Assembly (NCBI GenBank): GCA_017984435.1
Contig: JAGNZK010000024.1
Span: forward strand, 1 to 40,774
Source of the DNA: Nitrosomonas sp.
GTDB taxonomy: Bacteria; Pseudomonadota; Gammaproteobacteria; Burkholderiales; Nitrosomonadaceae
Direction: 5' to 3'
Length of the DNA stretch: 40,774 nt
The stretch's first letter is position 1; each line of letters starts with the position of its first letter. Position numbers and translations under genes: made by a program. Shown here piece by piece: positions 27,685 to 38,890 of the stretch. The notes beneath the pieces are model-generated. The model ran no database searches. It was given only the letters and a program-made list of their open reading frames with translations, and was not told the DNA's origin.

Positions 27685-28371
27685 TTATTTTCTTCTTGCA
27701 ACCATCACACCATCGCGAGTTGGATTAATAAATGCATCAAAATCCGGATCATTAAAAATCAGTCGATTATGCGCCATGATCGCTTCTGTTGAGCCCACTA
27801 CATCATCCTGATAACTTTCCACAGCGACACGACCATGCCACAAAACATTGTCAGCAATATAAAGACCACCGGAGCGTATTCGCTGCTTGGCCATTTGCCA
27901 AATTTCCGGATAAGCCTCTTTATCGACATCGTTATAACAAATGTCAAACAAACCATCTGTTTGTGCAAAAACATCCTGTGCTATCCCGACATGGAATTCC
28001 ATACGCGACCATAAAGCAGCAGCGGAAAGATATTTTTCGGCGCGCGCGCAATTGGCTGCATCCATATCGCTACAAATGACACGCCCATCGGCGCCGACCG
28101 CGCTTGCGAACCAATAGGCCGAATAACCATAACCACTGCCAAATTCAAAAACTCGCTTTGCATTAATCATCTTCGCCTGAGTTTCAAGAAAAATACCTAC
28201 CAGACGATTAACGATCGGAAAATCTCGCTGTCTTCCAAATTCCTCCATCTCCATGAGCACCGGATGATCCGTTTGCCCCATCAAACCACGCATATAGTCT
28301 TCAATGACCGGATTAACAGGAATTAACTTCGTTGCATCATCAACAACCGAAGATTGAATATCATCACGCAT
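27685..28371 (-). CDS. O-methyltransferase, catechol-OMT/caffeoyl-CoA-OMT-like
   Basis: This is a 228-residue Rossmann methyltransferase. The SAM motif FEFGSGYGYSAYW is near residue 75, the acidic SAM loop CSDMDAANC follows, and YNDVDKEAYPE and IADNVLWHGRV are the metal-binding motifs of the cation-dependent OMT family. Its substrate is unknown. It is last in the minus-strand glycan arm, 38 nt after the preceding methyltransferase. Confidence 0.85.
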   Translation of the reverse strand: MRDDIQSSVVDDATKLIPVNPVIEDYMRGLMGQTDHPVLMEMEEFGRQRDFPIVNRLVGIFLETQAKMINAKRVFEFGSGYGYSAYWFASAVGADGRVICSDMDAANCARAEKYLSAAALWSRMEFHVGIAQDVFAQTDGLFDICYNDVDKEAYPEIWQMAKQRIRSGGLYIADNVLWHGRVAVESYQDDVVGSTEAIMAHNRLIFNDPDFDAFINPTRDGVMVARRK

Positions 28372-28409
28372 ATTTTCTCCCTATCAATAGCAGATCAAAA
28401 TGAAAGTGT

Positions 28410-29417
28410 TCACTTTGTAACCATTAATACACATTCTTCACCTGAATTTTTGTCTCTCCGAAAAACCCAACTGGCTGCAATCTGGAACCGAAATCCTCTC
28501 AAAATATCGCGAATCGTCACTAACCGATGTCCATCTTTCATTGTTACTTGCTCTGATGACAAGCTATTTTGACCGATGCCATCCGCACCGACAGGTGTCG
28601 TCCAACAGCGTTGATGGCTAAAGCCCGCTTGTTGTGAAATTTGAACCAGTGTCTCGCAGGTAAACAAGTGCAGATGTCTCGGTGGCTCGAGACCACGCCA
28701 AGTCGCACCAAATTTACGATGACCATAGCTTGCCGCGTTGGGGGTCAGTAATACCAATAAACCATTCTTTTTCAAAGCACGATTGCAAACGGTTAATAAA
28801 GCAACGGGATCATGCACATGCTCAATCACATGACTCATAATCACCACATCATATTTCTCGGTCGCTTTCATCGTCTCAAGCGGCCCCGTATGCACGTCAA
28901 TGCCTCTGGTTTTTCGCACATATTCGGAAGCGATCGGATCAATCTCCTGCCCCGTCACCTCCCAACCCAATGCCTGCAACCGCGCCAATCGCTTGCCATT
29001 ACCGCAACCCACTTCCAGCAGCCGGCCCGGCGGAACCTCATCCAAATACATACGCTTGTAACGCCGACGCTCGGCACGCAAACCCAACATCATAATGCTC
29101 AGTGTATGCAGAATGGCGCGAACTACACATGCCGACCGCGTTTGTTGCGCATCACTTGATTGACCGTGTGTATAGTACTTCTGGTAGGCTTTTCCAATTT
29201 CACTCAGTGTTGGTCTTGGATCCAGCCAGACAAGACCACACTTAGGATCAGAGCATCTCCTAAAACTCCAGTCACCGGGTGAACCGAAAAGATGATCTAC
29301 CAGATTGCGATAAAACAACTCTCCCTCTTTACCACATAAATAGCAAACAGATTTAGTTTCCGTACCAATCTGAGCGAATTGCGCTGCATTCTTGTTCACA
29401 TCCGATAAATCTTGCAT
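28410..29417 (-). CDS. Class I SAM methyltransferase with N-terminal cysteine motif
   Basis: The product is 335 residues. Residues 24-62 hold CYLCGKEG and CSDPKCGLVW, a zinc-ribbon-like pair of cysteine motifs typical of sugar or lipid methyltransferases near glycan clusters. The SAM domain follows (LLEVGCGNGKRLARL near 137, IMSHVIEHVHDP near 195). The PRHLHLFT segment is typical of Methyltransf_23 proteins. Likely target: a nucleotide sugar or the surface glycan; this is inferred from neighbours. Confidence 0.83.
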   Translation of the reverse strand: MQDLSDVNKNAAQFAQIGTETKSVCYLCGKEGELFYRNLVDHLFGSPGDWSFRRCSDPKCGLVWLDPRPTLSEIGKAYQKYYTHGQSSDAQQTRSACVVRAILHTLSIMMLGLRAERRRYKRMYLDEVPPGRLLEVGCGNGKRLARLQALGWEVTGQEIDPIASEYVRKTRGIDVHTGPLETMKATEKYDVVIMSHVIEHVHDPVALLTVCNRALKKNGLLVLLTPNAASYGHRKFGATWRGLEPPRHLHLFTCETLVQISQQAGFSHQRCWTTPVGADGIGQNSLSSEQVTMKDGHRLVTIRDILRGFRFQIAASWVFRRDKNSGEECVLMVTK

Positions 29418-29473
29418 GATTACTCCACGCTTTATTAATCCGCAATCAGATCGCTGCTAAACACCACAACTAA

Positions 29474-30658
29474 TCAACGCAACCTTCTTTGCCAGCTGAT
29501 AGCAACTGCTGTAATCATCAGTAATAAAATTTGAGTCCTGCTAAAGATCATAAAAGTATCCGTGAGTCCTGCCAGGAAAATATAACTTACCAAACCAACT
29601 CCCAATATACCCAACTGATTCTTATTAAATATTTGATACCAGCTCCAGAGCAGAAACAGTAAAGCCAATATACCTGGAATACCGATATGCATAGCGATTT
29701 CAATCCAGTCATTATGATAATGGGCTGTTTCCTCGAATTCCGGCAAGTTCTTATAAATACCATTCTTGTACGTCAGGATGGTGTTTTCGAAATAGCTTTC
29801 CGGCGCACCTGTTCCGTAGCCTAATAATGGACGCTCAGCAATACCATGCAGACCGACATCCCACATGGCAAGACGATAGCCTAAACTGGAACTGTAGTTG
29901 CCTTGCTGTAATAATTCGATATCGTTTTTTGCTTGCGTCCATCGATCCTGAAAAACAGGGCTGTTATACGCAAAAACCACAGCAATACTCAGTACGGATA
30001 ACAAAATACCCATGAATTTCCTGAATTCCATTTTATAGCGCAAGAAAGCTAGCAATAACACGGTGATCAAAGTGGCGACCAGAAAAATTCTGCCACCCTG
30101 ATAAAACTGAACAAATAGTAATGCAATCGCGACGACACACAGCGGCATTCCGAGCTTGATTGATGGACTCAAGCAAGCAAAACCGACTGCCACTACCACA
30201 CCTGTCCCAAGCATGGCTGAGAAACTCAGATAATTCATCCCCAACAGCGGAATGCCCTGAACGCCCATGACAAGCCACTGATAAATGCCGAGCGCTAAAA
30301 CGCCCAAATAGCCCGTCAGCAACCCGCCTATCGCCCACGGCAAGCGCTCTTTAGTCAGAAGAGAATAAAAGGGAATAAAGATCAATAGCATAAAATACTT
30401 CGTCCATTTCATCCGCCCATCTTCCGGCAATTCACTCCATAGTAACCCTACGAGCAAAAGCGTACATAGTAGAAGAATCGCTTGTATCAATGGCTCTTTA
30501 ATGTCCTGCTTGAATCGACGCAAGCCACCGTCAATTAACCAAGCAATCCCTAACAATGGAAAATACAAAAGACTCAACTTGGTATACCAAAATCCCAGGC
30601 AGATAAAGACCAGCGCAAACCGGATAAACAGTTCACGCCATGTAATACTCGTTTGCAT
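29474..30658 (-). CDS. O-antigen ligase / polymerase family membrane protein (Wzy_C/WaaL-like)
   Basis: This is a 394-residue polytopic protein with about 10-12 membrane segments. A large periplasmic loop lies between about 225 and 320, followed by the family motif HYHNDWIEIAMHIGIPG, whose His is essential in known ligases. The loop also has RLAMWDVGLHGIAERPLLGYGTG (quoted as separate motifs RLAMWD and LLGYGTG). WaaL-type proteins attach polymer to lipid A-core; Wzy-type polymerise repeat units. The sequence does not decide between them. Confidence 0.85.
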   Translation of the reverse strand: MQTSITWRELFIRFALVFICLGFWYTKLSLLYFPLLGIAWLIDGGLRRFKQDIKEPLIQAILLLCTLLLVGLLWSELPEDGRMKWTKYFMLLIFIPFYSLLTKERLPWAIGGLLTGYLGVLALGIYQWLVMGVQGIPLLGMNYLSFSAMLGTGVVVAVGFACLSPSIKLGMPLCVVAIALLFVQFYQGGRIFLVATLITVLLLAFLRYKMEFRKFMGILLSVLSIAVVFAYNSPVFQDRWTQAKNDIELLQQGNYSSSLGYRLAMWDVGLHGIAERPLLGYGTGAPESYFENTILTYKNGIYKNLPEFEETAHYHNDWIEIAMHIGIPGILALLFLLWSWYQIFNKNQLGILGVGLVSYIFLAGLTDTFMIFSRTQILLLMITAVAISWQRRLR

Positions 30659-30756
30659 AAAGCCAATCCATCGATATTCTTTTCATAAAATTCAGCATGG
30701 ATCCCATTGGTAAGTCCTGCTGACTATCCGGAGTAAATCTGAAAATTTAAACTGTG

Positions 30757-31773
30757 CTACCCCCATCTCTGAACTCCCAGCTTCCGCACACGAATAAAAA
30801 TGGCGAGTAAAATGCGTAGCAACCCCGAGACCCCTGGCAATATCCAAACTGCGGAAATGCGTTTATCCTCGCGCGACCAGCCACGCAACATCAATTTCAT
30901 GATTATTCTGATACTTGCCGGGCTGTTGCGCATCTGCAAACAAGATAACTGCGACAATAACGATGGTGTCAGCCAATGAATACCGCCACCCTGCCGCAAT
31001 ACCTGCTCAATCGCATGAGCAAGCTGAACCGGCAAATCGGTCAGCGTATATTGCCCCGAAACCAGCAAAATATTTTGGCGCGCTTCAGGATAACGTGAAA
31101 GATACAAAGCACGGTTACGTTGCGCCAATGATCGATACGATTGGCCACGTCCAAACGATGCTCCGCCTTCATGCTGGATAGATGCATCCGGATGCACGCC
31201 CATCCGCCACCCTTGTTGATCCAACCGGCGTCCCAAATCCGTATCCTCGAAATAACCCCGGCCAAATTGCGCATCGAATCCACCCATCGCAATAAATACA
31301 TTGCGCCGGATTAAGAAGGCATAGCCTTGAAAACGATAGGTGGCGATATATCCGCCAGGGCGCCGCAGGTATCGTGCAAAATCATATTTAGCTAAATTGT
31401 CCTGCGTAGGACTGATCACCGCTAATTCCGGATCCGCTGAAAAAGCTTCGCACAATAGCGGCAGGAAATTTTCGTAAACTGCTGTATCCGAATTCAGTAC
31501 CAATATTAAATCGGCATCGGAGCGTGCCACTGCTTCGTTCACCGATTTCCCATATCCCTGATTCTGCGGTGCGTGGTAAACATGAACTTGCGGGTAAGAT
31601 AGGCTATCAAGCATCGCGCAGGTTTCAGTGTCCGACGCATCATCCTGAATATAAATAATCCCTATTGCGGAGCCAAGATAATTGATGACTGAATCAATAC
31701 AGCGTTTTGTCAGTTCTGGTGCGTTATAGACGGGAATAATGACATCAACAGACGGGGCTATGGACGCATTCAT
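30757..31773 (-). CDS. Glycosyltransferase family 2
   Basis: This is a 338-residue GT-A enzyme. VIIPVYNAPELTKRCIDS opens the nucleotide-sugar domain, LVLNSDTAV holds the metal-binding Asp motif, and GYFEDTDLGRRL is the acceptor/base motif (ED). The profile resembles rhamnosyltransferase-type GT2. The last 50 residues include a hydrophobic stretch (LLRILLAIFIRV) that could tether it to the membrane. It sits 6 nt after the FkbM gene on the same strand. Confidence 0.88.
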   Translation of the reverse strand: MNASIAPSVDVIIPVYNAPELTKRCIDSVINYLGSAIGIIYIQDDASDTETCAMLDSLSYPQVHVYHAPQNQGYGKSVNEAVARSDADLILVLNSDTAVYENFLPLLCEAFSADPELAVISPTQDNLAKYDFARYLRRPGGYIATYRFQGYAFLIRRNVFIAMGGFDAQFGRGYFEDTDLGRRLDQQGWRMGVHPDASIQHEGGASFGRGQSYRSLAQRNRALYLSRYPEARQNILLVSGQYTLTDLPVQLAHAIEQVLRQGGGIHWLTPSLLSQLSCLQMRNSPASIRIIMKLMLRGWSREDKRISAVWILPGVSGLLRILLAIFIRVRKLGVQRWG

Positions 31774-31779
31774 ACAAAC

Positions 31780-32547
31780 TTAGGTTCTTTCAAATATCAG
31801 GTACGCCTCTCCCCAGTTCCTCGCCGATCTTTGCTTAACCTTAAGGCCAGCCTGCTCCATTAAAGCGATCGCTTTATTTTGTTCCTCATCAGTGCCCAGC
31901 TCAATGATGACCGACCGCAATGCGGAATGCGCCAATACAGATTTGGCGCCATTCAGAATAGAAATTTCTATGCCATCGACATCGATCTTCATATAATTCG
32001 GATAGGGGAATCCCCATTTTTCGCACAAATCATCCAATGTGACGCCAAACATCCCTTGGACATGCGTTGCTGATATTTTCATATTCTCGATGTCTTCATG
32101 CCCGAATTGCGACCGGTTCCCGCCAGGAATAAATTTGGGGATGTACAGTTTGGAAAATTCACTTTGACCCGATACCGCAACACAATACGATAAAATATTT
32201 TTCCCCAGGTTATTAAAAAAAATATTCTTGTTGAGTGCATAGTAATTGTTGCTTTGCGGTTCAAACGCGAAAACCTGAATTTTATCGCCGTATTTTTTGG
32301 CCGGGTACAAGGAATATTGTCCGATATTGGCGCCGATATCAAAATAGCATGAATCCGGTTCAAAACTGTCCAACCAATCCAGCGTATCCGGTTCTTTAAT
32401 TGAGTAGGTTTTTGCCCGTTGAAGGGTGCGCAAGTGATCGACCGAAATTAAAATACGCTGATCTCTAACCTGTATATCCGCATACCCGCCTTTCAGTTTA
32501 TACGCTGCCACAACCAACTCATTGAATATGTCTTTAGCTGACATCAT
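31780..32547 (-). CDS. FkbM family methyltransferase
   Basis: This protein has 255 residues from ATG 32547; GTG 32553 and ATG 32544 are alternatives. The SAM domain shows CYFDIGANIGQYSLYPAK and VFAFEPQSNNY, and MKIDVDGIEISILNGA is the FkbM signature. FkbM proteins O-methylate sugars or polyketides; here a sugar of the surface glycan is likely from context. Confidence 0.88.
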   Translation of the reverse strand: MMSAKDIFNELVVAAYKLKGGYADIQVRDQRILISVDHLRTLQRAKTYSIKEPDTLDWLDSFEPDSCYFDIGANIGQYSLYPAKKYGDKIQVFAFEPQSNNYYALNKNIFFNNLGKNILSYCVAVSGQSEFSKLYIPKFIPGGNRSQFGHEDIENMKISATHVQGMFGVTLDDLCEKWGFPYPNYMKIDVDGIEISILNGAKSVLAHSALRSVIIELGTDEEQNKAIALMEQAGLKVKQRSARNWGEAYLIFERT

Positions 32548-32607
32548 GATCACTTTATGAAATTATACGGTTAAGCCTCGGTTTTATAAGGCGGGCATGA
32601 AGGTCGC

Positions 32608-33873
32608 TCAACACGCTGATTGCTCAAGCAACGCGACATAACGGGGTAACACATCGGCATCCGGAAAATCCAGCATTTCCTTTAAAAAGCGCAGCCGATG
32701 CGCTTCAACATAAAAGGAATCGCAACCATTGGTTAAAAAACCGTTGATTTTTTCATACACATCATCGCGGCATTTCAATTCCGTCTCCGGCATGTAATAA
32801 GCCACCGTTGAACGGGCCGCGATCAAATAATCCGCAGCCAACACCGGCTTTTTTGCCCTGACCGCTTCAAATACCACCGAAGTGGCCAAATCAATAATGA
32901 CATCGGACCAATTCATCAAATGAACGGAATGCGCATCATCGCCGGCCACATGCACATTGGGCAACTGCTTTATCGAACTGTCTTTGGTTAAAGACTGCTT
33001 CCAGCCGCTACGCGTATGGGGTTTGATAATTAATTCCACGCCGGGAAACTCGGCAATCATATGCACCACTTCACCCACTTCTTCCCAGAATGTCGTGAAA
33101 TTGGCTTTTCTCAGGAACATGACAATTTTGAGGCGGCTGTCCGAACGGACGAGTGGCGAAGGCGGCATCAATCCGGAAAGTATTTTCAACCATTCTTCGC
33201 AATACCGTGGCGAGCCTAATACAGCAAGCTGGTTTTCCGCCATAAATGGGCGAAAGCGTACGGCACATAAATCGTTGGGCACTACCACCTTATCAAATAT
33301 CTTAGCTGCCGAGAATGTGACATCGGGTTCCACGCGTCTTTCACCGCGACGGATCAGTTGGCTGGCGTGCGGACTATCGCCATGCGGCAATGATACGGCA
33401 CCTAATCCCCGGCTTTTTGCCATGGCGACCACCACTTCGACCCATTCCACACAAATCACCGAATTTCGTTCAATCCAGTCAAAAGCGATCACCCCCTTAC
33501 CTGCGTGACCGAAGCTTCTCTCTAACAAGTAATTAGCAGTATGCCGCCACAACGGTTCGCGTTCTTTTTCATCGTAGCGTTCAGCCAGTCTGGTCACTAA
33601 CGGGCCGATCACTTTTATGCGTCGTACATTGCGCGTCAATAAAAACATCTGTAAGCGCCATTTGATATATTCACGCAATGAAAATAGCTCGCGCATATGC
33701 GCGACACGCACACCTTCCAGTTGACTTAAGTATTTAATACGAAAATCACGACGGAATGCTGTCGAACCGATCAGTACCACATCGCATTGATGACCCGATT
33801 TGATCCATTGGTAAATGACCGGAGTGACATGATCAATGTCGTTATAATGGCGAAGAAAAAAAAGGGCCTTCAT
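32608..33873 (-). CDS. Probable GT-B glycosyltransferase / CDP-glycerophosphotransferase-like surface glycan protein
   Basis: This 421-residue protein has no signal peptide. The N terminus (MKALFFLRHYNDIDHVTPV) starts a Rossmann-like half. The C-terminal half contains LIIKPHTRSGW, LMNWSDVIIDLATSVVFEAV and KKPVLAADYL, the pattern of CDP-glycerol glycerophosphotransferases and related polysaccharide transferases. SLPHGDSPHA near 180 is also seen in such families. The donor is unknown. It is the first gene of the minus arm and divergent from the KdsB-like gene, so a CMP-activated sugar donor is worth considering. Confidence 0.65.
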   Translation of the reverse strand: MKALFFLRHYNDIDHVTPVIYQWIKSGHQCDVVLIGSTAFRRDFRIKYLSQLEGVRVAHMRELFSLREYIKWRLQMFLLTRNVRRIKVIGPLVTRLAERYDEKEREPLWRHTANYLLERSFGHAGKGVIAFDWIERNSVICVEWVEVVVAMAKSRGLGAVSLPHGDSPHASQLIRRGERRVEPDVTFSAAKIFDKVVVPNDLCAVRFRPFMAENQLAVLGSPRYCEEWLKILSGLMPPSPLVRSDSRLKIVMFLRKANFTTFWEEVGEVVHMIAEFPGVELIIKPHTRSGWKQSLTKDSSIKQLPNVHVAGDDAHSVHLMNWSDVIIDLATSVVFEAVRAKKPVLAADYLIAARSTVAYYMPETELKCRDDVYEKINGFLTNGCDSFYVEAHRLRFLKEMLDFPDADVLPRYVALLEQSAC

Positions 33874-34151: not shown

Positions 34152-34901
34152 ATGAAAACAATCGCTGTAATACCGGCCCGCATGGGTTCATCGCGTTTCC
34201 CCGGCAAACCCATCGCAAAAATATTGGGGCGCCCGATGATTGAGCATATCTACAAACGTGTCGCCATGAGTAAATCACTCGATGCTACTTATATCGCAAC
34301 CTGCGATGAGGAAATCCGGCAAGTGGCGGAAAGTTTTGGCGCGCCCGTCATCATGACAGCCGATACCCACGAACGCGCCAGTGATCGCGTGGCCGAAGCG
34401 GTCGCCCAATTGGATGCGGACCTGATCGTTATGGTGCAAGGGGATGAACCGATGACCCATCCGAACATGATTGATACCGCCGTGGCTCCCTTTAGAGATA
34501 ATCCGCAATTGGGCTGTGTCAATCTGGTGCGAAAAATTGATCGCGAAGCAGATTATCTGGATGTCAACACCATCAAGGTGGTGATGAACCAACAAGGTGA
34601 TGCCCTGTACATGTCACGCCGTCCTATCCCGACATTGGCCAAAACCGGTTTTGCCGACACTGCTGCCCATAAACAGGTTTGCATCATTCCATTCCGCCGC
34701 GCCACGCTGTTTCAATACACCCATCTGGCGCCCACGCCGCTGGAACAATTGGAATCCGTCGATATGTTGCGCCTGCTGGAGCATGGTTTCCAGGTCAAAA
34801 TGGTGCATACCGAATTCAATACACAAGCAGTTGATACCGAAGCGGATTTGGCACGTGTCGCCAAACTGATGGAAACAGACCCGTTACTCTCTCGCTATTA
34901 G
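34152..34901 (+). CDS. KdsB-like CMP-3-deoxy-ulosonate cytidylyltransferase
   Basis: This is a 249-residue cytidylyltransferase of the KdsB family (E. coli KdsB 248). PARMGSSRFPGKP (8-20) is the CTP loop, VQGDEPM the metal-binding motif, and PLEQLESVDMLRLLEHG the family's C-terminal motif. KdsB activates Kdo with CTP for lipid A-core or capsule. Differences from KdsB, such as SRRPIPTL in place of SRATIPW, may mark a different ulosonate. It begins a tight plus-strand operon. The genome should also carry a canonical kdsB elsewhere; that could not be checked. Confidence 0.87.
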   Translation: MKTIAVIPARMGSSRFPGKPIAKILGRPMIEHIYKRVAMSKSLDATYIATCDEEIRQVAESFGAPVIMTADTHERASDRVAEAVAQLDADLIVMVQGDEPMTHPNMIDTAVAPFRDNPQLGCVNLVRKIDREADYLDVNTIKVVMNQQGDALYMSRRPIPTLAKTGFADTAAHKQVCIIPFRRATLFQYTHLAPTPLEQLESVDMLRLLEHGFQVKMVHTEFNTQAVDTEADLARVAKLMETDPLLSRY

Positions 34902-34909
34902 GAAACGTC

Positions 34910-35680
34910 ATGTCATTAAAATTAAGATTGAGCCGATCTGAATTGACCATTGGTTCTTGGGTCACACTGGGACATCCATCGATTGCTGAAATCATGGCGG
35001 CAGCCGGATTTGATTGGTTGGTGCTGGACATGGAACACAGCGTGTTGGAGCTGAGTGAAGTGCAAGCCATCATCCAGGTTCTGGACGGCAAACAATGTCC
35101 GGCCATCGTGCGCCTGACCTCCAATCATCCCGATCAGATCAAACGCGTCATGGATGCCGGCGCCACCGGCGTAATGATTCCGATGATCAAGTCCGCCGCT
35201 GATGCCGAAGCTGCGGTGAGTAGCGTCTATTATCCGCCACGGGGACAAAGAGGCGTCGGTCTTGCGCGTGCTCAGGGCTATGGCGCCAGCTTCCAGGTCT
35301 ACCGGCAATGGCTGGAAGAAAATGCGGTGATCGTCGTCATGATTGAACATATCGACGCCGTCAGAGCCATTGACAACATTCTGTCTGTTCCCGGTATCGA
35401 CGCCTACATCATCGGCCCTTATGATCTATCAGGCTCAATGGGACGCCCCGGCGATCTCAATCACCCGGATGTGCAGACTGCTATCGCGCAAGTTCTGGAA
35501 GCTGGTCGCCGTGCTCACAAGCCCGGCGGCATCCACGTCATAGAACCGGACCTGCAAGCACTGCAACAACGCATTCAGGCAGGTTTTAATTTCCTCGGCT
35601 ATGGCTTGGATATTCGTATTCTGGATTCCATCTGCCGCACTCACTTACAAAGCATTCGCGCAACACTCAAAACATCATGA
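34910..35680 (+). CDS. HpcH/HpaI-family class II pyruvate aldolase
   Basis: This is a 256-residue aldolase related to GarL and HpaI. The active-site residues line up: His43 in LDMEHS, Arg68 in IVRL, metal ligands Glu146 (MIEH) and Asp172 (GPYDL). GarL has QIE where this has MIE, so specificity may differ. The family adds pyruvate enolate to an aldehyde (or the reverse), giving 4-hydroxy-2-oxo acids, which are 3-deoxy-2-ulosonates when the aldehyde is a sugar. It lies 8 nt after the KdsB-like gene and overlaps the next gene by 4 nt (ATGA). Confidence 0.9.
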   Translation: MSLKLRLSRSELTIGSWVTLGHPSIAEIMAAAGFDWLVLDMEHSVLELSEVQAIIQVLDGKQCPAIVRLTSNHPDQIKRVMDAGATGVMIPMIKSAADAEAAVSSVYYPPRGQRGVGLARAQGYGASFQVYRQWLEENAVIVVMIEHIDAVRAIDNILSVPGIDAYIIGPYDLSGSMGRPGDLNHPDVQTAIAQVLEAGRRAHKPGGIHVIEPDLQALQQRIQAGFNFLGYGLDIRILDSICRTHLQSIRATLKTS

Positions 35681-36609
35681 ACACATTGGTCATATCCACC
35701 TCTTCCTTCGATATCGATAATAATCCACCACTTCAGCAACTGCTGCGACAAGGCATGCAGATCATCACCAATCCGCATCGTCGCAAACTCACCGAAGACG
35801 AGATTATTGAATTACTGCGTGGCGGAGCGGTTGGCTTGATCGCCGGCATTGAACCACTAACCGAACGGGTTTTTCAGTCTGCCAAAAATCTCAAAGTCAT
35901 TTCACGCTGCGGTGCCGGGTTGGACAGTGTCGATTTGGTCGCAGCGAAAAATCATGGCATGACGGTTCTAAACACACCGGAAGCACCCGCACAAGCCGTA
36001 GCCGAACTCACGATGGGATTCATTTTGACCCTGCTGCGGCAAATCGGTCAGATCGATAGATCCGTACGTCAGGGCGAATGGCCGCGCACGCAAGGTCGTC
36101 TGTTGGCCGCGCAAACGGTCGGCATTATCGGCATGGGACATATCGGCCGCCGTGTTGCGCGCCTGTGTCAGGCATTTGAAGCCACCGTCATCGCGCACGA
36201 TCCTTATGCCAGTCAGGTACCTGATGTCGTCACACTGATGCCGCTGGAACAATTACTGGCCACCGCCGACATTATCACGCTACACCTACCTTACTCACCG
36301 GATACGCATCATTTACTGAATGCCAAAGCATTTGCCGCCATGAAACCCGAAGCGATTGTCGTCAACGCCGCACGCGGTGGATTGGTCGATGAAAATGCAC
36401 TCGCAGAAGCATTACAAACAGGAAAAGTCAGTGCCGCTGCGTTGGATGTGTTTGAACAGGAACCTTATCACGGCCCACTCATCGAGTGCAGCAACATCAC
36501 TTTAACATCGCATGTCGGCTCCCTCGCTAGGGAATCACGTCAGCGCATGGAAATCGAAGCGGCTGAGAATCTGCTGCAGGGTTTGATTAAAACCGGTTTA
36601 ATCAAATAA
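35677..36609 (+). CDS. D-2-hydroxyacid dehydrogenase (phosphoglycerate dehydrogenase-like)
   Basis: This is a 310-residue NAD-dependent dehydrogenase. The cofactor loop GMGHIG is at 152-157; catalytic Arg233 (ARGGLVDE), Glu262 (FEQEP) and His279 (TSHVGS) are all present. It lacks the ACT regulatory domain of SerA. Oxidising or reducing a 2-hydroxyacid or 2-keto acid would fit the ulosonate theme, but the substrate is unknown. It overlaps the aldolase stop and is followed 10 nt later by the epimerase. Confidence 0.9.
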   Translation: MNTLVISTSSFDIDNNPPLQQLLRQGMQIITNPHRRKLTEDEIIELLRGGAVGLIAGIEPLTERVFQSAKNLKVISRCGAGLDSVDLVAAKNHGMTVLNTPEAPAQAVAELTMGFILTLLRQIGQIDRSVRQGEWPRTQGRLLAAQTVGIIGMGHIGRRVARLCQAFEATVIAHDPYASQVPDVVTLMPLEQLLATADIITLHLPYSPDTHHLLNAKAFAAMKPEAIVVNAARGGLVDENALAEALQTGKVSAAALDVFEQEPYHGPLIECSNITLTSHVGSLARESRQRMEIEAAENLLQGLIKTGLIK

Positions 36610-36619
36610 CGGAAACACT

Positions 36620-37549
36620 ATGTTGAACGAAACAGTCGTGGTATTTGGCGCCAGCGGTTTCTTGGGCAGTCACGTTGCCGATGCCTTGTCGACCGCTGGC
36701 TACAAGGTACGCTTATTTGACCGCAGCCCGTCACCGTATCTTAAAAGCAATCAGGAAATGATTATTGGCGACATTATGAACCTCGATCAAGTCATCGAGG
36801 CCGCCAAAGGCACATCCATCGTTTACAACTTTGCCGCGATTGCCGACATCGATGAAGCCAACGACAAGCCCATTCCTACTGCAACCATTAATGTATTAGG
36901 CAACATGCATGCTTTGGAAGCCGCGCGCATCGCCGGCGCCCGCCGTTTTGTGTTTGCCAGTAGCATCTATGTGTATTCCGAATCCGGCTCTTTTTATCGC
37001 GCCAGCAAACAGGCCGCTGAACGTTTCACTGAAACCTATCATGACCGCTACGGCCTGGATTACAGCATTCTGCGCTATGGTTCGTTGTATGGCCGGCGCT
37101 CGGACAAACGCAACGGCATTTATCGCATGCTGCACGAAGCCGTTGCGCACCATTCCATTACCTACAAGGGCAGCGGCGATGCCATGCGGGAATATATTCA
37201 CGTGGAAGATGCCGCGCGCATGAGCGTGCAAATTTTAGCGCCTGAATTTGCCAACCGACATCTGATTCTGACCGGACAAGAAAGATTGCGTATCAAGGAC
37301 GTCATGACCATGATCTCGGAAATTCTACCGTGGCCGGTGGAATTGCATTTTGACGAAGCCAACGCCGTGCACCACTACGAGATCACGCCGTATGCATTTC
37401 AACCGCGCATCGGTCGTAAATTAGTGCTGAATGAACATGTCGATCTCGGGCAAGGGATTCTCGATTGCCTACGGGAAATTCACCAGGATTTGCATCATGG
37501 CGATGAAAATGACGACGCCACCCCCGCCACCTCGGACAACCGCGCATAA
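36620..37549 (+). CDS. NAD-dependent epimerase/dehydratase (extended SDR)
   Basis: The product is 309 residues. GASGFLG (10-16) binds NAD; the catalytic site is Ser114/115 with Tyr126-x3-Lys130 (YRASK). Such enzymes act on nucleotide sugars. Relatives include UDP-glucose epimerases and dTDP-sugar dehydratases; the sequence does not fix the reaction. The last 15 residues (DDATPATSDNRA) are low-complexity. It ends 2 nt before the HAD gene. Confidence 0.9.
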   Translation: MLNETVVVFGASGFLGSHVADALSTAGYKVRLFDRSPSPYLKSNQEMIIGDIMNLDQVIEAAKGTSIVYNFAAIADIDEANDKPIPTATINVLGNMHALEAARIAGARRFVFASSIYVYSESGSFYRASKQAAERFTETYHDRYGLDYSILRYGSLYGRRSDKRNGIYRMLHEAVAHHSITYKGSGDAMREYIHVEDAARMSVQILAPEFANRHLILTGQERLRIKDVMTMISEILPWPVELHFDEANAVHHYEITPYAFQPRIGRKLVLNEHVDLGQGILDCLREIHQDLHHGDENDDATPATSDNRA

Positions 37550-37551
37550 AC

Positions 37552-38193
37552 ATGAAAAATTTTGACTGGCAAGCGATCATTTTCGATTTTGACGGCGTAG
37601 TCGTAGAATCCGGAAAAATAAAAACCCAGGCTTTTGCGGAACTCTACCGCTCTTATGGCGAAGACATCATCGCCCAGGTCGTAGAATTCCACACCCAAAA
37701 CGGCGGCATGTCGCGCTACCGCAAATTCCGCCATTTCCAGCAACATTTTTTAAATAAGCCGCCTTTGACAGAAACGGAAGAAAAACAACTGGACATCCGC
37801 TTCTCCGAATTGGTGGTTGAAGCCGTCATCGCCGCCGAAGCCGTCCCCGGCGCGATAGAATTGATCCGCCAGCAAGCCGAAAGAATCCCATTATTTGTCG
37901 CCTCCGGCACACCGGAAACCGAACTCAAAGTCATCGTCGAACGCCGCGGCCTGACCCCTTACTTTAAAGAAGTACGCGGCGCACCGTCACTCAAACCAAC
38001 CATCATCGCGGAAATTCTATTTGCATACGCACTCAGACCCGAATCGGTGCTGATGATCGGCGACGCCATGGCGGATTTGGAAGGCGCGCAAGCCAACGGC
38101 ACCGCATTCCTGGGCCGCGTCTTTCCCGGCGATCCGAATCCTTTTCCAGCCGATGTGGAAATTGTTCCCGATCTGCGTGGATTAATCGCTTAA
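37552..38193 (+). CDS. HAD-superfamily phosphatase (subfamily IA)
   Basis: This is a 213-residue HAD hydrolase. The nucleophile motif is FDFDGVV (Asp12, Asp14), motif II is ASGTPE, motif III Lys lies in LKPTI and motif IV is GDAMADLEGA. A helical cap sits between 30 and 95. It is distinct from KdsC, which is a capless tetramer. In this operon it could remove phosphate from a sugar-acid phosphate before CMP activation; this is inference. Confidence 0.9.
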   Translation: MKNFDWQAIIFDFDGVVVESGKIKTQAFAELYRSYGEDIIAQVVEFHTQNGGMSRYRKFRHFQQHFLNKPPLTETEEKQLDIRFSELVVEAVIAAEAVPGAIELIRQQAERIPLFVASGTPETELKVIVERRGLTPYFKEVRGAPSLKPTIIAEILFAYALRPESVLMIGDAMADLEGAQANGTAFLGRVFPGDPNPFPADVEIVPDLRGLIA

Positions 38194-38209: not shown

Positions 38210-38890
38210 ATGCAAAGACATGTCTATCCGGATATCGAATCGTTAAGCCAAGGCTTTGCTGATTTTGCCGCAACCACGCTGCGAAACACACTGGCCCGTA
38301 AACCCCATGCCACGCTCGTCATCCCCGGCGGCAACACCCCACGCCATTACCTGCCTGTACTCGCAAAATGCCAATTGCCCTGGGATCGGATTACCGTCAC
38401 GCTCAGTGATGAGCGCTGGGTCGATATCAATCATGAACAATCCAACGAACATCTGGTGAAACAACACCTGATGAATCACCTTCCTGAAAATACACCTTTC
38501 GTCGGACTCAAAACCCAACACGACAGCCCTTTTGATGCTATTGATGAAATTCATCAACGCCTGGATCAACTATCGCTGCCACTAAGTTTGACGGTATTGG
38601 GCTTGGGAGAAGACGGGCACATTGCTTCACTGTTTCCGGGTATGAATCCTGATTTGCTCTCTACGTATCACTGTGTGGCTGTCGTACCACCGATTGCGCC
38701 ATCGCTGCGGATCAGTCTTTCGTTGGCGATGCTGGCAGGGAGTGAAAATATTGCGTTGGTTGTTACTGGTAAAAGTAAGCGACAATTGTTGGATCAGTTG
38801 TGTAAGCATCCTGATTCAAGATTACCCTTCACATGGCTGTTACGTCGTACTAATGCAACAATTACTGCTTTTGAAACGGATACTATGTAA
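38210..38890 (+). CDS. pgl: 6-phosphogluconolactonase
   Basis: The product is 226 residues of the DevB/Pgl type. LSDERWVDINHEQSNEHL and LGLGEDGHIASLFPG are the two signature motifs. It hydrolyses 6-phosphogluconolactone in the oxidative pentose-phosphate route. It lies 16 nt after the HAD gene on the same strand. Neither zwf nor gnd is nearby, so it is either a displaced central gene or acts on another sugar lactone from this operon. Confidence 0.92.
   Translation: MQRHVYPDIESLSQGFADFAATTLRNTLARKPHATLVIPGGNTPRHYLPVLAKCQLPWDRITVTLSDERWVDINHEQSNEHLVKQHLMNHLPENTPFVGLKTQHDSPFDAIDEIHQRLDQLSLPLSLTVLGLGEDGHIASLFPGMNPDLLSTYHCVAVVPPIAPSLRISLSLAMLAGSENIALVVTGKSKRQLLDQLCKHPDSRLPFTWLLRRTNATITAFETDTM

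Follow-up and report, generated by a model that had tools for sequence, protein, structure and literature searches.

A conserved operon of the Nitrosomonadaceae as a candidate aldolase-based module for a CMP-activated 2-ulosonic acid

The window, that is the whole stretch of DNA analysed, covers positions 1 to 40,774 of contig JAGNZK010000024.1 (assembly GCA_017984435.1) from a Nitrosomonas genome of 2.8 Mb that is 92% complete, and carries five intact, co-directional genes with ATG starts on the forward strand at positions 34152-38193. With a probability of about two in three, sequence comparison points to this operon as a dedicated aldolase-based module for a 2-ulosonic acid activated with cytidine monophosphate (CMP), the acid probably not being 3-deoxy-D-manno-oct-2-ulosonic acid (Kdo), and our confidence in any named product is lower. 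The genes encode a cytidylyltransferase of the KdsB superfamily (34152..34901; CTP_transf_3, 165.5 bits), an HpcH/HpaI class II aldolase (34910..35680; PF03328, 129.7 bits against a cut-off of 25), a D-2-hydroxyacid dehydrogenase resembling phosphoglycerate dehydrogenase (PGDH) (35677..36609; 2-Hacid_dh_C, 204.8 bits), an NAD-dependent epimerase/dehydratase of the extended short-chain dehydrogenase/reductase type (36620..37549; Epimerase, 143.8 bits), and a phosphatase of the HAD family, beta-phosphoglucomutase-like subclass (37552..38193; HAD Hydrolase, 69.7 bits). The tightly packed five-gene operon described by the initial annotation is thus real, with successive spacings of an 8-nucleotide (nt) gap, a 4-nt overlap and gaps of 10 and 2 nt, and its open reading frame coordinates and family assignments were confirmed.

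The operon is a stable feature of the family. Among the best 80 of 130 related stretches found, some of them cut by contig ends, 75 are titled Nitrosomonas, Nitrosospira, Nitrosovibrio or Nitrosomonadaceae, and the genes for cytidylyltransferase, aldolase and dehydrogenase follow each other in the same order at all 80. Homologues of the epimerase occur at 76 loci and of the HAD protein at 75; the four loci without an epimerase match (L016, L029, L044, L070) lie on contigs that are short or end there, and at L007, the one further locus without a HAD match, a block of N interrupts the epimerase. This conservation of the gene set exceeds chance. The aldolase was matched (E <= 1e-60) once in each of 118 of 121 Nitrosomonadaceae genomes, three of the matches being partial (G469, G530, G531), and in 99 of the 100 genomes of good quality, and it is kept even in genomes of only 1.0-1.5 Mb. 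Its closest relatives are those of Nitrosomonas, at 94% in a metagenome-assembled genome and 90-93% in N. oligotropha and N. ureae.

The aldolase was compared in 89 module members (the window, the 80 loci, L208 and seven rows from outside the family) and 20 generic family members. H43, R68, E146 and D172 (window numbering), which we take to be the catalytic set of HpcH/HpaI aldolases, are common to all of them and, together with the PF03328 score, place the window enzyme in class II. In contrast, His209, which lies within a two-residue insertion, is found in 89/89 module aldolases and 0/20 generic ones, and is also absent from the outside loci L203 and L205. The same split is seen for Phe128 (89/89 versus 0/20), Tyr171 beside D172 (89/89 versus 1/20), Tyr231 (88/89 versus 0/20) and His147 (88/89 versus 0/20), the last of which is nevertheless present in L203 and L205. 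The phmmer alignments pair His209 or its counterpart with the Leu in the GIL motif of HpaI (Leu212 in 4b5s numbering), while the MAFFT alignment places it in the insertion just before this Leu. If Leu212 is equated with Leu214 of AbHpaI, as we propose, the change would sit at the aldehyde pocket, which Leu214 lines according to the available part of PMC8560999. HpaI, GarL, YfaU and SwHKA, for the last of which two metal-binding acids are described in the accessible text of PMC11194214, belong to the same fold family as the window enzyme and have its conserved His, Arg, Glu and Asp; unlike them, the module aldolase carries the His209 insertion at or beside the Leu212 site, together with Tyr171 and Phe128, and stands in a context of glycan synthesis.

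The His209 mark also predicts module neighbours outside the family. In a survey of 398 Pseudomonadota genomes, 44 (two of them Nitrosomonas) held an aldolase match at E <= 1e-40, and loci were obtained for the 30 stronger ones, again including two Nitrosomonas. At least one module partner lies within about 1.5 kb at 6/6 outside loci with His209 (L171-L174, L176, L179), versus 0/22 without it (L175, L177, L178, L180-L198), a split with a chance of about three in a million, although two of the genomes, G058 and G172, belong to one genus and some loci have shorter flanks. Larger stretches around nine outside matches and one plasmid hit revealed related modules in other proteobacteria with shuffled gene order. 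All five activities occur within 9 kb in G164, and on an Acuticoccus plasmid in the order aldolase, cytidylyltransferase, dehydrogenase, HAD protein and an oxidoreductase that is 51% to the window epimerase. The trio of aldolase, cytidylyltransferase and dehydrogenase is present in G172, G058 and G109, aldolase and cytidylyltransferase at a contig end in G208, all but a cytidylyltransferase match in G192, and the aldolase only in G097, G215 and G376. The trio is conserved beyond the genus, in a lineage without KdsA over cut-off (0/121 genomes). The Acuticoccus cytidylyltransferase belongs to the PseF/NeuA type, with 82.5 bits against a PseF cut-off of 205.7 that it does not reach; since it takes the place of the KdsB-type enzyme, what is conserved would seem to be the step of CMP activation as such. 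This module sits on a plasmid (L209; NZ_CP094833.1, 30701-51459), near UDP-sugar dehydrogenase and glycosyltransferase genes, and may thus move between lineages.

The cytidylyltransferase forms a subfamily of its own. In a tree, the module enzymes form a clade apart from KdsB with support of 100/99, with a long-branch warning that concerns above all the KdsB-like gene of L201. The curated KdsB models give a mixed picture: the window enzyme falls below the equivalog cut-offs (TIGR00466, 145.6 < 155.2; NF003948, 172.4 < 281) and below one of the KdsB-named subfamily models (NF003950, 218.2 < 234), and is above the cut-offs of two other subfamily models. The first of these cut-offs discriminates poorly, since the second KdsB-like gene of L201 is also under it. 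This locus, in genome G058 outside the Nitrosomonadaceae, holds both kinds of enzyme close together: its segment L201:3266-11910 comprises a transketolase, the module cytidylyltransferase, a Gfo/Idh oxidoreductase, a GmhA-like SIS isomerase, the dehydrogenase, the aldolase, a methyltransferase-like gene and the second KdsB-like gene, an arrangement that may be a variant showing the acceptor chemistry.

When 21 module rows, the Acuticoccus enzyme being outside them, were compared with 15 KdsB-side rows, the N-terminal residues P8, A9, R10, R15, K19, R79, Q96, G97 and D98, along with D228, were common to the window enzyme and the KdsB side. Fixed differences appear elsewhere: position 175 is Q in 21/21 module rows and H in 15/15 KdsB-side rows, position 204 D versus E and position 51 C versus D in the same proportions, position 205 M in 21/21 versus Q in 14/15, and position 179 I in 20/21 versus Y in 14/15. 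The His, Tyr, Glu and Gln of the KdsB sugar domain, which presumably contact Kdo, are thus Q175, I179, D204 and M205 in the window enzyme. Positions 175-205 fall in the C-terminal domain, the one reported to bind Kdo in the available part of PMC3149649. The closest solved relative, the capsule-specific CMP-Kdo synthetase KpsU (1gq9, 168.5 bits), has the motifs KHVGIY and ESLEQLR where the window enzyme has KQVCII and ESVDMLR. Taken together, these alignments indicate that aldolase and cytidylyltransferase are two subfamilies with pocket changes of their own.

The genomic background also differs from that of relatives in the same order. KdsA over cut-off was found in 0/25 Nitrosomonas versus 15/16 relatives from the order, and, across the family, in 0/121 Nitrosomonadaceae genomes of four genera; matches to the KdsA model below the cut-off (up to about 111 bits, cut-off 314) occur in 99/121 and would correspond to other synthases of the superfamily. 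KdsD over cut-off (0/25 versus 15/16), the WaaA domain (0/25 versus 16/16) and LpxC (0/25 versus 16/16) are likewise missing from Nitrosomonas, the window genome included, whereas KdsC over cut-off was recorded in 4/25 versus 16/16. All four of these KdsC matches share an open frame with a second CTP_transf_3 domain (392-453 aa; G003:C353:11206-12333, G006:C1:1742464-1743579, G011:C38:21256-22371, G018:C89:59351-60463), and such frames probably encode bifunctional enzymes of the sialate or nonulosonate type. Every one of the 25 Nitrosomonas has one CTP_transf_3 match of 145-172 bits, with extra matches of at most 76 bits in 13. The initial annotation held that absence of a second kdsB would mark the operon gene as the ordinary Kdo enzyme, and the operon gene is indeed the single CTP_transf_3 match of the window genome (92% complete). 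With KdsA, KdsD, WaaA and LpxC missing as well, this argument no longer carries its weight.

How could such a module work? The dehydrogenase and epimerase would prepare a keto-acid donor and/or a sugar aldehyde, the His209-type aldolase would condense a (phospho)sugar aldehyde with pyruvate or hydroxypyruvate, the HAD phosphatase would remove a phosphate, the cytidylyltransferase would form the CMP-sugar, and a surface glycosyltransferase, perhaps the product of 32608-33873, would place it into a cell-envelope glycan. The best solved relative of the dehydrogenase is a phosphoglycerate dehydrogenase (202.3 bits), and the window protein remains below the PGDH equivalog cut-off (266.2 < 454). An Arg and a Lys of the N-terminal domain of PGDH presumably bind phosphate; the human stretch VRSATK aligns with IAGIEP in the window dehydrogenase, which lacks both, and AGxE is found in 10/10 module dehydrogenases aligned, so that a non-phosphorylated substrate would fit. 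The epimerase, 49-53% identical in the outside loci L199, L204 and L209, keeps YxxxK, and the loop before this motif is short compared with the best solved relative, which makes a free sugar or sugar acid, instead of a sugar linked to uridine diphosphate (UDP), a possible substrate. The trio with the dehydrogenase recurs most, and a dedicated dehydrogenase is hard to explain with plain pyruvate as donor, which leaves the supply of hydroxypyruvate as one option; SwHKA, a member of the HpcH/HpaI family, converts hydroxypyruvate according to the available text of PMC10099721. With this donor the product would not be a 3-deoxy acid, while pyruvate and a sugar-derived aldehyde, as proposed by the initial annotation, would alternatively give one. 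Of the alternative ulosonate pathway that it put forward, the conserved module of aldolase, cytidylyltransferase and dehydrogenase is supported, and the Kdo-like or 3-deoxy nature of the sugar is not supported, given the changed C-terminal sugar domain, the absence of KdsD, WaaA and LpxC from 25 Nitrosomonas, and the possible hydroxypyruvate donor.

The surroundings of the operon would fit a use at the cell surface. The adjoining genes that the initial annotation took for a surface-glycan arm lie on the reverse strand (27685-33873) and include those for methyltransferases, a family 2-type glycosyltransferase and a protein with a predicted GT-B fold. The last of these (32608..33873, reverse strand), nearest to the operon and divergent from it, has homologues at 71/80 related loci; it gave no Pfam match, no PDB sequence match at E <= 0.1, and just 25.9 bits against a cut-off of 200 for the glycosyltransferase model NF046086. 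Its structural model (m658c1c9ea42a, 19 sequences; pLDDT 74.7, pTM 0.75) has GT-B structural matches, and it is perhaps a surface glycosyltransferase that uses the CMP-sugar. Downstream, 16 nt after the operon, lies a 6-phosphogluconolactonase gene (38210..38890, forward strand; TIGR01198, 149 bits > cut-off 124.45) that is possibly co-transcribed and whose role in the module is doubtful; it follows the operon at 53/80 loci, the Nitrosospira loci L053, L065, L067 and L078 being among those where no copy was found.

Several observations weigh against a dedicated module for a non-Kdo acid. Two subfamily models named for KdsB accept the cytidylyltransferase (NF009905, 309.9 > 255; NF003952, 283.5 > 193), and the 89 aldolases compared are not independent, 82 of them belonging to one lineage. 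The homologue of 32608-33873 is missing at seven loci with sequence there (L021, L024, L049, L050, L064, L066, L069), besides two contig ends (L036, L075), which makes this gene frequent rather than obligate and leaves its assignment as the transferase unsettled. At one outside locus with the His209 mark, L204, no cytidylyltransferase match was seen in the 12 kb covered of a contig of 14.3 kb. Finally, no epimerase or HAD homologue was found in L200-L202 (G172, G058, G109), which instead carry a GmhA-like SIS gene (108-110 bits in the two scanned, below the gmhA cut-off of 209; assigned in L200 by resemblance to L201), a Gfo/Idh-type oxidoreductase in L200 and L201 (the former call resting on resemblance to the latter), and, between the dehydrogenase and aldolase genes of L200, a gene of the inositol-monophosphatase type, so that the product may differ among lineages.

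Among other explanations, the one that survives best, though improbable, is that the operon makes ordinary Kdo, with KdsA replaced by the aldolase (acting on pyruvate and arabinose 5-phosphate), KdsC by the HAD protein, and the cytidylyltransferase serving as KdsB. The single CTP_transf_3 match of the window genome, the two KdsB-named models passed and the kinship with KpsU would all fit, but the Nitrosomonas genomes showed neither a KdsD over cut-off, from which arabinose 5-phosphate would have to come, nor a WaaA domain (0/25 each), and the changes in the C-terminal sugar domain are fixed. Slightly less probable still is the activation of another acid than an ulosonate, such as a phosphonate or an acid of the glycerate type made by the aldolase and the dehydrogenase, for which the PGDH-like character of the latter would speak, as would the use of cytidylyltransferases in phosphonate tailoring mentioned in the available part of PMC6697681. 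However, scans of the proteins around the operon named no PEP (phosphoenolpyruvate) mutase family, and both types of module cytidylyltransferase match ulosonic-acid families (KdsB and PseF, the PseF match being below cut-off). Catabolism of a sugar acid or aromatic compound by a GarL/HpaI-type operon with an incidental cytidylyltransferase is very improbable, since, even though the closest solved aldolases include the catabolic GarL, HpaI and YfaU, the window aldolase is below all four catabolic equivalog cut-offs listed (188.6 < 368.8, 175 < 406.75, 174 < 393 and 147.5 < 441, with HpaI, GarL and RhmA among them), none of the 22 aldolase loci without His209 (20 generic ones and two others) has module partners, the operon adjoins glycan genes, and the aldolase is kept in 118/121 genomes of ammonia oxidisers, N. 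europaea being described as an obligate chemolithoautotroph in the available text of PMC3087551.

Compared with known systems, a dedicated aldolase-based module would resemble the Kdo pathway (KdsD-KdsA-KdsC-KdsB-WaaA) in that a KdsB-superfamily enzyme finally activates an acidic sugar with CMP, after a phosphatase has acted. It would differ in the enzyme that forms the carbon-carbon bond, which would be an HpcH/HpaI aldolase and not a PEP-dependent synthase, in the changed sugar domain, and in the absence of KdsA over cut-off from the Nitrosomonadaceae and of KdsD and WaaA from the 25 Nitrosomonas. It would share CMP-activated ulosonates with the neuraminic, legionaminic and pseudaminic (Neu, Leg, Pse) nonulosonic acid pathways, which use the PEP-dependent NeuB family, and the Acuticoccus module has a PseF/NeuA-type enzyme; among the genes listed for the Acuticoccus stretch, in a table that is incomplete and was not searched specifically for NeuB, none is of the NeuB type. 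To our knowledge, the ulosonic acids with a known route to the CMP-activated form (Kdo, sialic, legionaminic, pseudaminic) are all built by PEP-dependent synthases, and no description of such an aldolase route was found in the open-access literature searched, most subscription papers being outside it.

What remains of the lipid A pathway in Nitrosomonas bears on where the acid might be used. LpxK is present in 25/25 genomes (G000:C14:122227-123180 in the window genome), and its P-loop GNxxxGGxGKTP, intact in the 14/14 order relatives examined, is altered in 16/16 Nitrosomonas examined, with DS or DG for GN and loss of GG (L139-L144, L146-L153, L155, L156), which perhaps denotes a repurposed or decaying kinase. 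The available part of Opiyo et al. 2010 (PMC3087551) reports lpxK as the only one of nine lipid A genes detected in N. europaea, and cites lpxA alone for Nitrosospira multiformis. LptD was found in 24/25 Nitrosomonas, including the window genome (G000:C83:3555-4661), the miss being a genome that is 75% complete. With LptD retained while LpxC and WaaA are lost, Lpt could export a glycolipid of a different kind, and no tie between the operon and Lpt was found. A bolder picture, tentative and on balance unlikely, would be that the Nitrosomonadaceae make no classical lipid A-Kdo and that LptD exports another glycolipid or glycan bearing the acid of the module, perhaps a 3-hydroxy ulosonate from hydroxypyruvate supplied by the PGDH-like dehydrogenase, as a family-wide Kdo substitute. 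If the dedicated aldolase-based module is real, a CMP-activated acid built by an aldolase and kept in 118 of 121 genomes would represent a second chemical solution, and the module would offer a handle on the make-up of the outer membrane in these ammonia oxidisers, where LpxC is missing from 25 of 25 Nitrosomonas and LptD kept in 24.

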